A stretch of 64,000 nucleotides of DNA from Stygiobacter sp. RIFOXYC2_FULL_38_25 (GTDB lineage Bacteria; Bacteroidota; Ignavibacteria; Ignavibacteriales; Melioribacteraceae). A program made the position numbers and the translations under genes. The notes beneath the pieces were generated by a model. It did not search any database and was not told the DNA's origin. It saw nothing but the letters and a program-made list of their open reading frames with translations. Numbering within the stretch: the first letter of the stretch is position 1; each line of letters begins with the position of its first letter. Positions 44,520 through 50,248 of this stretch are shown one piece after another. The stretch covers positions 124,001 through 188,000 of the forward strand of contig MHAZ01000003.1 in NCBI GenBank assembly GCA_001803165.1, read 5' to 3'.

Positions 44520-46007
44520 CTACTTAATCCGGAGAAGCATCTTACTAAGTCTAAGAATTTCACTTTTACTTACCACACGCATAACAAAAAGCATCCCAAC
44601 AAACCCTAAGAGCATAATCAGTTTATAAGTGAACGTTAATCCAACATTATAATAGATATAATAATAAACACCGCTGGTAGCAAATAAAAGGAAAATTATA
44701 CGAGCGATTTTCGAGAGTTCATATTCAATCTTGTAAAACTTTTGAGAGTAATAGTACAATCCGTAAGCCATAACGATATAGGAGGCAAGAGTAGCAAGTG
44801 CGGCGCCCACAATTCCCAAAGCCGGAATTAGCAAAAGATTTGCAACTACATTTACAATTGCGCCGGCACTGGTTACAATTGGGAAATATTTTGTTTTCTC
44901 CTCAATATAAATTCCAGCTTGAAAGTTGTAGTAAATTCCGTTGAATAAATATCCAAGCAAAATGATTGGAACGATTACAAGTCCATCCTGGTAGCGCTCT
45001 TGATAAATCGAAATGCCAAATATTTTCATCTTCATTACATCATCAATAAATAATGAAATTACTATCCAAAGAAGGCTTGTAAATAGTAGAAATAATGTTA
45101 GAACTTTCGAAAAGATTTCTTTTGCATTTTTTTCTTTTGCGTTGGTTAGAAAAAAGGGCTGCCACGCAAACTGGAACATCATAACAACAAGCATCATCAA
45201 CGTACCAAGTTTGTAAGAAGCAGAAAACACACCAAGCGTTTCATAATCTGTTAGTTTTTCAACCATTGGTCTGTTAATTACTTGTACAATTGTTGCAGAT
45301 AAGCTCGCGGGCAAATATGGTACGCCAAACCAAAACATTTTTCTTAGATACTCTTTATCAATTTTCAAGACAAGGTTTTGGAGAATATCGGGAGCGAGCA
45401 GCACAAGATTTAGTAAGGAAGCAATTAAATTAGCAACGAAAATTGATTCCATTCCCCATTTCAATTTGATAAAGAAGAATAGATTCAATAATAGATTTAC
45501 AACGATATTAATCAGACGTATAAGAGCAAACTTCTTGGACTTTCTCTCTAACCGAAGATACGCGAATGGAATTATTGTAACTGTATCTAGTATTAAAATA
45601 AAAATTAGATAGTAAAAGAACCGATAAAAACGATCTGGATCAATCAACAAATACTTTTCCGGAATATCCAGATAACTCATAAACGAATTCTGTAGGAAAT
45701 AAAGGGCTACTGATAAAATAATGGTAGTTACTGTAACGGCAATTAATGCTGTAGAAAATACTTTCTTCTTAGTTTCGCCGGAATTGAGAGATGCATACTT
45801 CATAAATGCCGCATCCATTCCATAAATAAAAACAACATTTAGAAAGGCTATAGCCGCGTAGTAGTTATTGTAAATTCCCATTTCACCTTTATCGGGTAAA
45901 ACGTGAGTATAGAAAGGAGTTAGAATAAAACCGAAAAATCTACCTAGGATGGTGCTTATTCCATAAACAGCGGTGTCTTTTGTAAGTTGCTTAATCTTAT
46001 CTAACAT
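44520..46007 (-). CDS. Wzx-type oligosaccharide flippase
   Basis: A 495-residue inner-membrane protein of about 14 helices, of the MOP/polysaccharide transporter family, which flips lipid-linked repeat units to the periplasm. It starts LDKIKQLTKDTAVYGISTIL, like many Bacteroidota homologs, followed by the YG and GMDAAFMKYA segments. It belongs to the polysaccharide region though no polymerase gene lies next to it. The thioesterase gene is 34 bases upstream. Confidence 0.88.
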   Translation of the reverse strand: MLDKIKQLTKDTAVYGISTILGRFFGFILTPFYTHVLPDKGEMGIYNNYYAAIAFLNVVFIYGMDAAFMKYASLNSGETKKKVFSTALIAVTVTTIILSVALYFLQNSFMSYLDIPEKYLLIDPDRFYRFFYYLIFILILDTVTIIPFAYLRLERKSKKFALIRLINIVVNLLLNLFFFIKLKWGMESIFVANLIASLLNLVLLAPDILQNLVLKIDKEYLRKMFWFGVPYLPASLSATIVQVINRPMVEKLTDYETLGVFSASYKLGTLMMLVVMMFQFAWQPFFLTNAKEKNAKEIFSKVLTLFLLFTSLLWIVISLFIDDVMKMKIFGISIYQERYQDGLVIVPIILLGYLFNGIYYNFQAGIYIEEKTKYFPIVTSAGAIVNVVANLLLIPALGIVGAALATLASYIVMAYGLYYYSQKFYKIEYELSKIARIIFLLFATSGVYYYIYYNVGLTFTYKLIMLLGFVGMLFVMRVVSKSEILRLSKMLLRIK

Positions 46008-46041
46008 CTATAAAAATCCAGCCAAACAATTCTTGGCGTTA

Positions 46042-46458
46042 TTACTTCGTTTCAAAATATTTAGCTAAAACGTCAATGTAAACTTTGGGAGGTCGCACAG
46101 CTTTTTTAGTGTCTTCGCGAATGAATACGTGTGTGGTAAATCCTTCAGCAACAATTTCGCCGGTTTCTTTTTTCTTTACAACATATTCAACTTTCGGTCG
46201 CGGCGTGTAAAGTTCTCTTACAGTTGCATGAATTTCAAGTAAGTCATCGTAAGTTGCCGGGGAAAGATATTTAACACCGGCTTCAATTAACGGTAGTTGA
46301 TAACCTTGTTCTTCGATCTTTCTATAAGGAAAACCGATTGATCTGAATAGTTCTGTTCTGCCTACTTCAAAGTACTCTAAGTATTTTCCGTTATAAACAA
46401 ATTGCATTTTGTCCGTATCTGCGTAACGAACACGAATCTCAGCGGCATTTGTAATCAT
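46042..46458 (-). CDS. YbgC/FadM-type acyl-CoA thioesterase
   Basis: A 138-residue hot-dog fold protein hydrolysing acyl-CoA. The catalytic aspartate is in RYADTDKMQFVYNGKYLEYFE, the family start of 4HBT proteins, and the FTTHVFI strand near 107 closes the fold. Its substrate is not readable from sequence. It lies between accA and the flippase genes, separated from accA by two hairpins (46501-46560). Confidence 0.88.
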   Translation of the reverse strand: MITNAAEIRVRYADTDKMQFVYNGKYLEYFEVGRTELFRSIGFPYRKIEEQGYQLPLIEAGVKYLSPATYDDLLEIHATVRELYTPRPKVEYVVKKKETGEIVAEGFTTHVFIREDTKKAVRPPKVYIDVLAKYFETK

Positions 46459-46500
46459 TGATATATCAGAAGTTTAGTGGATGAACAACATTAATTGTAA

Positions 46501-46560
46501 AGACGCTCCGTTGGAGCGTCTCACTTATATATTTTTTTTAGACGATTCACCGAGTCGTCT
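46501..46560. repeat. Pair of palindromic hairpins between accA and the thioesterase gene
   Basis: Hairpin 1 (46501-46521) has a perfect 9-bp stem, AGACGCTCC with GGAGCGTCT. Hairpin 2 (46540-46560) has a 9-bp stem with one wobble, AGACGATTC with GAGTCGTCT. Both begin AGACG and end CGTCT, and 18 bases of A/T-rich DNA lie between them. They differ in the middle of the stem while keeping complementarity, as expected for a selected or repeat-type element. Neither has a convincing T-run after it on the minus strand. Confidence 0.6.
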
Positions 46561-46582
46561 CTACAAAAAATTCTAGAGTTAC

Positions 46583-47533
46583 TTATTCTTCGTAAACTCC
46601 CATCTTGCCAAATTTTTCTAAACGGTTTGAAATTAACTTTTCCGGCTTAATCTTAATCAAAGCTGCAAGTTCTTCTTTGAGTACAGTTTTTAATGTAACA
46701 GCCATTTGATGATGATCTTTATGAGCGCCGCCAAGCGGTTCCGGAATTATTCTATCAATAATTCCTTGTTCTAATAAATCTTCCGCGGTGAGTCTGAGCG
46801 ATTCGGCAGCTTGTTCTTTGTATTCCCAACTGCGCCATAAAATGCTTGAGCAAGATTCCGGGCTGATTACAGAATACCAAGTATTTTGCAGCATCAAAAC
46901 TCTATCGCCAACGCCAATACCAAGAGCACCGCCGCTTGCGCCTTCACCAATAATAACAACAACGATTGGGACTTTAAGACGGCTCATCTCCAGCAAGTTT
47001 CTAGCAATCGCTTCGGCTTGTCCGCGCTCTTCGGCTTCAATACCAGGATATGCGCCCGGCGTATCGAGCATTGTTATTACAGGAATTTTGAATTTCTCAG
47101 CAAGTTTCATCAAACGCAAAGCTTTGCGGTAGCCTTCCGGATTCGGCATTCCAAAATTTCTAAACACATTTGATTTTGTATCGCGTCCTTTTTGATGACC
47201 AATAATCATAACTTTTTGACCATCAATCTTAGCAAGCCCGGCAACAATTGCGTGATCATCTTTAAATGCACGGTCTCCATGTAACTCAATAAAACCTTCG
47301 GTAATCATGTAGATATAATCAAGAGTATATGGACGTTCCGGATGACGAGCTAATTGAACTCTTTGCCAACGTGTTAGATTGCTATATATACTCTGTTTTA
47401 ACTGAAGAACTTTTTCTTCGAGAGTTTTAATTTCGCTGGAAATGTCTAAAGCAGTTTCGTGCTTGCGCATTTCTTCAATTTTGTTTTCGAGATCGATAAT
47501 CGGTTTTTCGAAATCGAGAACGTTCTTTGCCAT
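46583..47533 (-). CDS. accA: Acetyl-CoA carboxylase carboxyltransferase subunit alpha
   Basis: Part of the enzyme that makes malonyl-CoA for fatty-acid synthesis. The 316-residue protein has an N-terminal coiled coil and the carboxyltransferase core with [41 protein letters not shown] and [16 protein letters not shown], all intact. It starts two bases after the glycosyltransferase fusion gene, so it is cotranscribed with polysaccharide genes. The beta subunit accD is not in the window. Confidence 0.97.
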
Positions 47534-47535
47534 TT

Positions 47536-49524
47536 TTACTCCGTCCTAAAAAACATTTTCGAAAATGTCTTACCAAGAATTTCCAAGTCTAACCAAAAAC
47601 TTTGATTTCTCGCGTAGAAGATATCCAACTTTTTCATTTCGTCTGTATCGGTTTGACTCAAACTCTCAATGAACCAGAATCCGGTTAAACCCACTTTACC
47701 TACATACAGACCATCTTGGTAAGAAGAAGCTCTGGGACCTACAAAAGATTTGCTTCCCACACACACTTGCGGAACGCCGAGTACGAATTGAGTAAAACTG
47801 CCCTTTTGTAACGTGAACTTCTGAAGCAAATATATAAACGGATAAACCAAAAACAAAGCTAAGTGACCCACTATAAGATCGAAGAGTCTTTTAGTAATTC
47901 TGCTGCTAATCGTTGAAACATTGTAATTAACTTTGAGAAGTGAAATATCATCCAGCATCGTCATGGAAGATTTGCCGACTAAATAGTCCATCTTTTTTCC
48001 AACAACAAGAAACTCAACATTCAAGCCTTGGCATTCCGAAACAACAGAAAACATTTGGTTGAAGGGTAAATCATCCGAAGAAAAAATCACTTTCTCAATC
48101 CGCTCTTCTTCGATTATCTTTTTGATATTCTCCGTTGAGCCTAAAAATGTATGCGCTCCAATTTTTTCGCCAATATTTTTGCGTGATAAGCCGATAAATC
48201 CGACTATTTGATATAGCTTCATCACGTTTGACTTGAGCTTTGAAGCAACTTCTTCAACGTGACTTTCGCTACCAACAATTAGCGTTCTTGATTTTCTGGT
48301 ATCGGCAGCTAGCCCAAATCTGAATATCACTTTCAGCATTATCCGCCAGAGTAAAAACACAACAAAGCAAACTGCGTAAGTAATCAATACAACGGCACGG
48401 CTGAAGCCAAATTGCTTAAAGAAATAGGTTATCGCTGAAAGGAATACTAATCCATAGATAAGTGAGATAAACATTCTGAGAACGGAAATTGAGCTTTTCC
48501 TGTAAGCGCCGCTCAATAGCGAAATGAATATTTGAATAAGTGAAGGCACAAAATAAACCCATGGCTTTGCGTAATTAGGAAATCCATGAATTCGTGTTTC
48601 GAGATATAACTTTTCTGAAATGATAATGACCGATGAGAAAACAAAGAAATCTACAACGATAGAAATAATTGAGAGTTTATAAACATTTGCAAACGCAATA
48701 AGCTTACGGAAAACAATCGCCAATTGAAGAATTGTTTCTACAATGATTGAAGTTGAGAAATGCTTCTTCACAAAAAGATGCATTGCATCGTAGAAGACTT
48801 TTGTTTCATCAATGCTGCTTCGCTTTGTGCTTTCCCCTTTATAGTGAATTATTTCCGTCTCGTGCACATAATAAACCTTGTAGCCGGCTTTTTGAGTTCT
48901 GTAACATAAATCCAAATCTTCACCATACATAAAGAACTGAGGGTCGAATCCTCCAATCTTATCATAAACAACCTTGCGTAACATCATGAAAGCGCCGCTG
49001 ACTGCATCTACTTCGTAAGTTTGGTTTTCGTCTAAGTAAGTAAGATTGTAACGAGCAAACAACTTGCTTTTAGGAAACAGCGTACTCAAACCCATAACTT
49101 TTGTGAATGAAGTCCAAGGACCGGGAAAACCTCTGCGGCAAGCAAGCTGTAATGTTCCATCTGGATTCAGAACTTTGCAGCCGGCAATTCCGCAATCCGG
49201 TGTAGCTTCAAAGAAGCTAATCATTTCGGCAAAAGTATCTTCTTTAACAATAGTATCGGGATTTATCAGCAAAATGTATTTGCCTTTTGCCAGAACCAGA
49301 GCTTGATTATTGGCAGCGCCGAAACCAACATTCTTTGCGTTAGCAATTAGTTTAATGTCCGGAAATTTTTCTTTGACCGCTTCCACGCTCCCATCATCTG
49401 AGGCATTATCAACAACAAAAATTTCTGTTGTTAACCCGGATGAAGCTTTGCGGATAGACTCGAGAAGATTCAGAACGAATTCTTTTACATTGTAGTTAAC
49501 TATTATAATAGATAAGTCAATCAT
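47536..49524 (-). CDS. Glycosyltransferase family 2 fused to a degenerate sugar-phosphate transferase
   Basis: A 662-residue fusion. Residues 1-235 are a complete GT2 domain, with [23 protein letters not shown], the donor DxD in LINPDTIV and the EDLDLCYR motif. Residues about 265-420 form a block of membrane helices. The C-terminal half follows the layout of polyprenyl-phosphate sugar transferases: a Rossmann-like segment (about 430-520), KRLFDLIVG and GLTGFWFIE. However, the catalytic KFRSM and DELPQ stretches are absent, so this half looks inactive. It could be a scaffold or a regulatory partner of the active enzyme encoded at 50245-51648. Confidence 0.8.
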
Positions 49525-49531
49525 TCCGAAT

Positions 49532-50248
49532 TTAATTTAGTGTGCCAAAGATGCTTTTGAGGCGAAGCTTCCAAACCATAGTAATTGCTTCGCGGACAAT
49601 TTTCTTAGACATTTTGGAAGTTCCTTCTACTCTATCAACAAATGTAATTGGTACTTCCACTATTTTGAATCCAAGCTGATATGCTTTGTAATTCATCTCA
49701 ATCTGAAATGAATAACCGTTGGAGTGAATTTTCTCTAAATTGATTGCACTAAGCACTTCCTTACGGAAGCATTTGAAACCGCCTGTTCCATCTTTAATAG
49801 GCATTCCGGTGATAATTCTTGTATATAAATTTGCACCGTAACTCAGCAGCAATCTCCTAATTGGCCAGTTAATAACACGCACGCCATAAATATATCGGCT
49901 TCCTATAACTAAATCGTACTGCTTAATCATTTCTAAAAATGTTTCTATCTCTTGCGGGTCGTGAGAAAAATCTGCATCCATCTGAATTGCGTAATCATAG
50001 CCGTTGGCAAGCATATATTTGAAGCCGGCAACGTAAGCTGTTCCAAGCCCCATTTTACCTGGGCGCTCAATAATTTTAATTCTCGGAACCGTCTTAGCTG
50101 CTTCTTTCACCCAACCGGCAGTGCCGTCGGGAGAGTTATCATCAACAACTAAAACATCCACAGACGGAAAGGAGCTAAGTATATCCGGCAACAATCTTTT
50201 GATGTTGTGAATTTCATTGTAAGTTGGAATAATAACAAGAGCTTTCAT
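49532..50248 (-). CDS. Dpm1-like polyprenol monophosphomannose synthase
   Basis: A 238-residue GT2 enzyme that probably transfers mannose from GDP-mannose to polyprenyl phosphate. Signatures are VVDDNSPDGTAGWV, the QMDADFSHDP donor site and VIGSRYIYG, plus the FKCFRKEVLSAI segment. No C-terminal membrane domain is present, as in the short Dpm1 form. It overlaps the sugar transferase gene by four bases. Confidence 0.87.
   Translation of the reverse strand: MKALVIIPTYNEIHNIKRLLPDILSSFPSVDVLVVDDNSPDGTAGWVKEAAKTVPRIKIIERPGKMGLGTAYVAGFKYMLANGYDYAIQMDADFSHDPQEIETFLEMIKQYDLVIGSRYIYGVRVINWPIRRLLLSYGANLYTRIITGMPIKDGTGGFKCFRKEVLSAINLEKIHSNGYSFQIEMNYKAYQLGFKIVEVPITFVDRVEGTSKMSKKIVREAITMVWKLRLKSIFGTLN

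Follow-up and report, generated by a model that had tools for sequence, protein, structure and literature searches.

Genes and domains at the locus

The window analysed here is a stretch of 64,000 nucleotides from Stygiobacter sp. RIFOXYC2_FULL_38_25 (contig MHAZ01000003.1, positions 124,001 to 188,000). Its gene P0001 was placed exactly, at 47536-49524, by an earlier note on this DNA that left the strand unstated; it lies on the minus strand, as do its neighbours, and encodes a 662 aa protein in which a GT2 glycosyltransferase is fused to a large monotopic phosphoglycosyl transferase (Lg-PGT) that lacks its active site. Two genes upstream in transcription is P0002 (50245-51648, minus strand), a complete Lg-PGT with intact KFRTM and LDEIP motifs and a PF02397 match over positions 1-178 (E 2.2e-70). 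Between them lies dpm (49532-50248, minus strand), a GT2 gene resembling polyprenyl-phosphate sugar synthases and falling under every NCBIfam cut-off listed, while accA (46583-47533, minus strand) follows downstream of the fusion. Since dpm overlaps the P0002 stop by 4 bases and the gaps between dpm and the fusion and between the fusion and accA are 7 and 2 bases, P0002-dpm-fusion-accA looks like one operon. The same gene run includes a thioesterase-like gene (46042-46458) and a polysaccharide flippase-like (wzx) gene (44520-46007), both on the minus strand; together with accA, a fatty-acid synthesis gene, these genes (44520-47533) stay with glycan genes across the order.

The GT2 domain of the fusion (residues 1-258, 48751-49524, minus strand; PF00535/PF13641) is complete, as the earlier note had read it: PF00535 matched residues 5-190 (E 1.4e-23), and N88-P89-D90 and G201-E202-D203 are invariant in the columns of 26 sequences. 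The DN.S, NPD and GED motifs of GT2 enzymes were each present in 134 of 138 aligned fusion rows, which derive from the fetched loci. Five of these rows fall short of 600 aa, among them L004, a truncated copy of the window protein. From the conserved motifs we infer that the GT2 is active. The domain matched GT2 structures such as 6p61_B (Z 25.4, rmsd 1.9 over 184), with RmlT being one of many fold matches of this kind. A complete domain and the three motifs are shared with rhamnosyltransferase/WcaA-like GT2s, but the fusion differs from these in carrying the inactive Lg-PGT half and in staying under the cut-off of every NCBIfam model among the matches listed (25 of 29); the rhamnosyltransferase model TIGR01556 gave 43.9 bits, far under its cut-off of 200.55.

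The features of the C-terminal half, all on the minus strand, begin with a bundle of four long transmembrane (TM) helices seen in both models (residues 285-405, 48310-48672) and aligned by profile onto the TM region of WbaP. It is followed by a Rossmann-type DUF (PF13727, CoA_binding_3; residues 406-508, 48001-48309), which is supported by a Pfam match at residues 341-507 (E 5.2e-12) and by structure matches to 3nkl and WbaP 8t53. A beta-hairpin is predicted on the C-terminal side of the DUF (residues 511-537 with strands 521-524 and 527-532, 47914-47994); it aligns with the WbaP stretch bearing the dimer hairpin and is of low confidence in the single-chain models, where residues 511-527 and 533-537 are under pLDDT 50. 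A remnant of the re-entrant membrane helix, aligned to WbaP/PglC, includes KRLFD and P562 (residues 541-572, 47809-47904), and here K545, D549 and P562 are invariant in the 26 sequences and their columns conserved in the class and phylum rows as well. The remnant of the Asp-Glu-bearing helix (residues 576-592, 47749-47799) was placed by hhalign to P0002 and by spacing, and the protein ends with a post-catalytic remnant consisting of a 19-residue stretch and the terminal helices (residues 593-662, 47539-47748). PF02397 (Bac_transf) matched residues 587-658 only, which are profile positions 97-178 of 179 (E 4.9e-12), and of the four PF02397 matches in this genome the fusion is the weakest. The earlier note had described the C-terminal half as lacking the core that is intact in the neighbouring enzyme, and the comparison with P0002 agrees with this.

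As a single chain, the whole fusion was modelled with a mean pLDDT of 76.0 and a pTM of 0.50, and the C-terminal half with 72.7 and 0.38. The half was folded alone because the full-length fold searches gave GT2-type or other glycosyltransferase structures alone among the best 50. Its top Foldseek match was WbaP (8t53, E 2.4e-10), and its PGT domain superposed on PglC 8g1n with Z 11.3 and an rmsd of 3.4 over 122 residues; against whole WbaP the rmsd was 14.2 over 331, making the relative placement of the domains unreliable.

Absence of the catalytic block

The fusion shares with the Lg-PGTs WbaP and WcaJ (PF13727 + PF02397) the TM bundle, DUF, predicted hairpin, re-entrant helix and post-catalytic helices, whereas it differs from them in its N-terminal GT2, in not keeping the arginines that contact undecaprenyl phosphate (Und-P) and in lacking some 55 residues, the catalytic block with KFR[ST]M and Asp-Glu. 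Built from 16 relatives, a profile covering residues 285-662 aligned to WbaP 67-359, that is from TM helix 1 into the re-entrant helix, jumped 360-437 and picked up at 438, directly after the catalytic Asp-Glu. Structure prediction and WbaP alignment, two of the checks proposed in the earlier note, gave a WbaP fold match with a gap at the active site. When the fusion was aligned to P0002 by hhalign (probability 99.4%, 369 columns), the catalytic Asp and Glu columns were occupied by L582 and G583 in the window protein and the preceding KFRTM block was absent. Comparison with PglC likewise showed the internal deletion. The spacing from KR..D to SxVG had a median of 48 residues in the fusions (range 23-121; 112 of 138 rows measurable), compared to 103 in active PGTs (range 100-104; 89/91).

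A regex search found KFR[ST]M after residue 450 in none of the 138 fusion rows, and the catalytic Asp-Glu was found in none of them either. Of five DE-like strings present, one is in the DUF and the others are in the hairpin linker; all precede the re-entrant helix, which contradicts the displaced catalytic motif that the earlier note had allowed for. Among 133 ORFs resembling active PGTs, of which 125 are distinct, 131 carry both motifs. The two exceptions are the same 147-aa fragment met in two loci of one genome (L054 and L133), where the active PGT next to the fusion is broken into open frames of 147 and 253 aa. The binding of Und-P has been attributed to two basic residues of PglC, Arg88 and Arg145, in the accessible part of PMC10519829. 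The Arg88 column holds R in 91/91 active PGTs, and in the window protein it is either skipped (WbaP profile alignment) or a threonine (hhalign); the Arg145 column holds K or R in 8 of 108 testable fusions versus 77 of 90 active PGTs.

A search for an ancestor with an intact core found the KFR motif in 0/30 proteins of the more distant matches, some of which are cut at the locus end, and of the four DE-like strings among these proteins three fall within the DUF and the fourth in a GT2 of 399 aa, within its short tail. An intact core is also missing from the longest fusion variants (e.g., L177, L184-L186, L190, and L191). A Terriglobia locus matching residues 4-653 proved to consist of a separate PGT-like gene, identified by motif, and a GT2 gene with another gene between them, and was set aside.

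Distribution and gene neighbourhood

Within the order, 55 of 58 genomes, the window's own included, have a full-length match; in G024 and G031 the match is cut by contig ends, and G043 has none. A profile of 26 relatives found matches at E 1e-30 in 288 of the 294 class genomes and 308 of the 395 phylum genomes, counts that are upper bounds for the fusion because a GT2-only gene can reach this threshold; among the best matches listed, nearly every class row and most phylum rows came close to full length. This recurrence in order, class and phylum contradicts a single-genome artefact, which the earlier note had also considered. At 1e-15, all 37 chosen genomes had a GT2/fusion match, some of them to other GT2s. 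Some phylum rows (L193-L195) show eroded C-terminal landmarks. In seven phylum genomes of 80, the GT2 comes with neither TM bundle nor dead domain, and six of these genomes retain an Lg-PGT.

The run PGT-dpm-fusion-accA is conserved in the order. Among 40 loci (L096-L135) representing 40 of 57 relatives, dpm is directly upstream of the fusion in 38/40, accA downstream in 37/38, and an Lg-PGT within 2.5 kb in 33/34 that could be tested. The same three measures were 20/30, 27/30, and 16/26 for 31 loci of the class, and 4/24, 13/29, and 9/23 for 29 loci of the phylum. In several genomes that carry the fusion on a separate contig (e.g., G063, G155, G060, G196, and G219), PGT and dpm remain adjacent. 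A single dpm with an E-value of 1e-40 or lower is present in 36 of the 37 chosen genomes, the exception being G043. This sole genome of the order without the fusion also lacks dpm and the large PGT, having catalytic-part matches only, as if the whole glycan step had been lost, and the loss of all three counts as a single event.

An Lg-PGT scoring over the TIGR03025 cut-off was present in 78 of 80 genomes, the exceptions, judged by best E-values, being G043 and G318; in the latter genome, the GT2 gene is without TM bundle or dead domain. Divided by gene content, this amounts to 72/72 genomes with a TM/DUF-bearing fusion and 6/8 without such a fusion. Because Lg-PGTs are so common and the genomes are not independent, the co-occurrence is weak evidence of a link. 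Three genomes without a class-level fusion match (G222, G128, and G065) carry a relative of P0002.

In two loci of the order (L108, 8722-10935; L111, 2969-5194), the active PGT is immediately preceded, in the same frame, by another GT2 of 265 aa that is not fused, and this arrangement, with a gap of 12 or 24 bases between the two, could offer a route to a GT2-PGT fusion. The window's own genome encodes another unusual PGT fusion, a 644-aa protein (L003, G000:C9:22371-22781) whose Bac_transf part has intact KFRTM and IDELP motifs and is apparently active. This part lies behind a hydrophobic and a putative methyltransferase-like region.

Single origin and purifying selection

A quick, unrooted tree without bootstrap combined the dead domains of 36 out of the 138 rows with 33 Lg-PGTs adjacent to a fusion and 20 others. 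All 36 dead domains fell on one side of one branch (SH-aLRT 100), with L195 forming a long branch, and 32 of the 33 fusion-adjacent Lg-PGTs formed one clade that contained one of the 20 others, the remaining one grouping with other Lg-PGTs. Given this single branch and single clade, the fusion and its PGT appear to be old companions. Since the active state is general in PGTs, the catalytic block was presumably lost rather than gained, a direction that does not come from a root of the tree.

Of eight close pairs used for dN/dS, every segment was estimable in four (window-L041, L045-L019, L048-L049, and L016-L018). In this order of pairs, the post-catalytic remnant (573-662) gave 0.070, 0.085, 0.104, and 0.152, and the hairpin, with 30 codons only, gave 0.028, 0.023, 0.033, and 0.018, the lowest of all segments in each pair; the GT2 ranged from 0.048 to 0.068. 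The re-entrant helix was less constrained (0.259, 0.057, 0.134, and 0.205). Segments were saturated in the other four pairs and gave, where estimable, 0.121-0.142 for the remnant and 0.243-0.384 for the re-entrant helix. The dead half is under purifying selection. Synonymous divergence was lower in the re-entrant-helix segment (47809-47904) than in other segments in most close pairs, e.g., 0.158 against 0.336-0.958 elsewhere for window-L041, the segment being short.

Mean column conservation in 77 rows of the order was 0.816 for the GT2, 0.750 for the hairpin, 0.717 for the C-terminal helices, 0.582 for the DUF, and 0.550 for the re-entrant helix, so that the hairpin is the most conserved segment outside the GT2. 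It no longer stands out in the 61 class and phylum rows (0.406 versus 0.374 for the DUF).

Possible role of the inactive half

With motifs missing in all rows, a single branch and purifying selection, there is strong support for what the earlier note had proposed, a pseudoenzyme module attached to a glycosyltransferase. The C-terminal half is an Lg-PGT copy without its active site and probably serves for docking at the membrane, not for catalysis. Our preferred reading, to which we assign a probability of about 0.5, is a non-catalytic scaffold that keeps the GT2 membrane-bound and most likely docks onto the operon's active Lg-PGT. The TM bundle, re-entrant helix, DUF and hairpin would fix the GT2 to the inner side of the membrane. 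The dead half would stand in for a second active chain as the partner of an Lg-PGT, using the DUF and hairpin that serve in Lg-PGT dimers; this Lg-PGT would most likely be P0002, encoded two genes upstream. Such pairing would position the GT2 beside the initiating enzyme, where the lipid-linked sugar made by the PGT could be handed over for addition of the next sugar. We propose docking on an Lg-PGT because the retained parts are those forming the WbaP homodimer. According to the accessible text of PMC10942596, that homodimer is held by TM helix 3 and a post-DUF beta-hairpin crossing to the other chain, with the catalytic domains facing away, and the hairpin is flipped away in the monomer model of WbaP and placed only in the dimer; TM helix 3 and the DUF hairpin crossover are also named in PMC12802240, which gives a precedent for another protein acting through contact with an Lg-PGT. 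Against docking stand the looser constraint on the re-entrant helix, the erosion of C-terminal landmarks in some phylum rows, the hairpin's near-equality with the DUF in conservation outside the order, and the phylum genomes that retain an Lg-PGT although their GT2 has no TM bundle or dead domain.

The TM bundle and re-entrant helix could have been retained by a plain membrane anchor, or by a fusion that forms its own homodimer, without specific contact to the active PGT, and we regard this as possible but less probable than docking. Over 70 taxa, distances of the dead half and the PGT correlated with r 0.867, falling to 0.607 after accA and dpm and to 0.354 after the GT2 half were also taken into account. 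The GT2 half gave r 0.925, and 0.688 after accA and dpm, above the dead half, and since it correlates more than the dead half the result fits a shared pathway and not contact through the dead half. The absence of covariation specific to the dead half speaks for an anchor or homodimer, and so does the position of the fusion in class and phylum loci, where it is found beside accA more often than near a PGT. A mere anchor, however, would need no strongly constrained DUF and hairpin, and some distant families seem to retain the DUF tail and hairpin start without a TM bundle, although these matches are weak (6-12 bits). For the tether to the initiating enzyme or to the membrane suggested in the earlier note, the retained homodimer-forming parts and the closeness of the active Lg-PGT in the order leave it plausible, but the covariation does not point to the dead half in particular, and beyond the order the fusion is less often found near a PGT gene.

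A lipid-carrier module, in which the dead domain would bind the undecaprenyl-phosphate-linked sugar and present it to the GT2, seems unlikely to us: the KRxxD re-entrant helix with its kink proline and the post-catalytic SxVG, GxTG, Y and D residues are kept, as such a role would suggest, but the equivalents of Arg88 and Arg145 are not. We give somewhat less credit still to a regulator, a dead half that would pair with the active PGT and reduce or gate its activity, so that initiation keeps step with elongation. It would draw on the same docking evidence as the scaffold, and there is a precedent in the EpsZ-EpsW pair of Myxococcus, where, as described in the accessible part of PMC12802240, EpsW controls an Lg-PGT by contacting its DUF and catalytic domain, a contact based on proximity labelling and modelling. 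Nevertheless, a GT2 fusion is more simply explained by delivery than by control. In the same source EpsW is a response regulator, unlike the fusion, and EpsZ is without the hairpin that is predicted in the fusion. The missing active site taken alone would speak for a decaying relic, an assembly error or a displaced catalytic motif, but the single tree branch, the persistence through the phylum, dN/dS well below 1 and the absence of the motifs in 138 of 138 rows make this very improbable.

If docking on the Lg-PGT is true, the fusion represents an old case of a glycan-starting enzyme that was copied, disarmed and reused to recruit the next enzyme, and it would explain in physical terms how substrate is passed on while lipid-linked glycans are assembled. 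We know of no earlier scaffolding pseudoenzyme of the PGT superfamily, of which the fusion would then be the first. A literature search that covered few subscription papers found nothing joining phosphoglycosyl transferase with pseudoenzyme, and the GT2-dead PGT fusion was named in no title or abstract opening that it returned. One described arrangement shares a property with the fusion: in the Bi-PGT class (O'Toole et al., 2021, as presented in the accessible text of PMC10942596), a second functional domain is likewise carried on a monotopic PGT, but the PGT part of the fusion is catalytically dead and of the large type. FpgA of F. psychrophilum was set aside from its description (319 aa, with another glycosyltransferase-like neighbour).

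Candidate pathway and distant relatives

Most characterised O-glycans of Bacteroidota have a common inner part of mannose, rhamnose and glucuronic acid, and the machinery for this core is described as unidentified in the accessible text of a 2025 review (PMC12871550). As a hypothesis, the single-copy dpm and the phylum-wide GT2 are reasonable candidates for core-glycan enzymes. That dpm and the fusion GT2 belong to the mannose-rhamnose core machinery, with the dead half as a phylum-specific docking platform at the initiating enzyme, is a more specific idea that we consider rather unlikely. The window's own genome contains a RmlC-family gene, and a PMT_2 search of it gave three matches, two of them over the curated cut-off.

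Distant families, f41 and f59 among them, have a gene of 366-399 aa that encodes a GT2 followed by a short tail. The tails in L219, L221, and L226 have weak HMM matches (6-12 bits) to the DUF end and hairpin start and no TM bundle or dead domain. In L239, L241, and L245, a gene that we take to be recR, from N-terminal residues read by eye, lies one or two genes upstream of the short GT2 gene.
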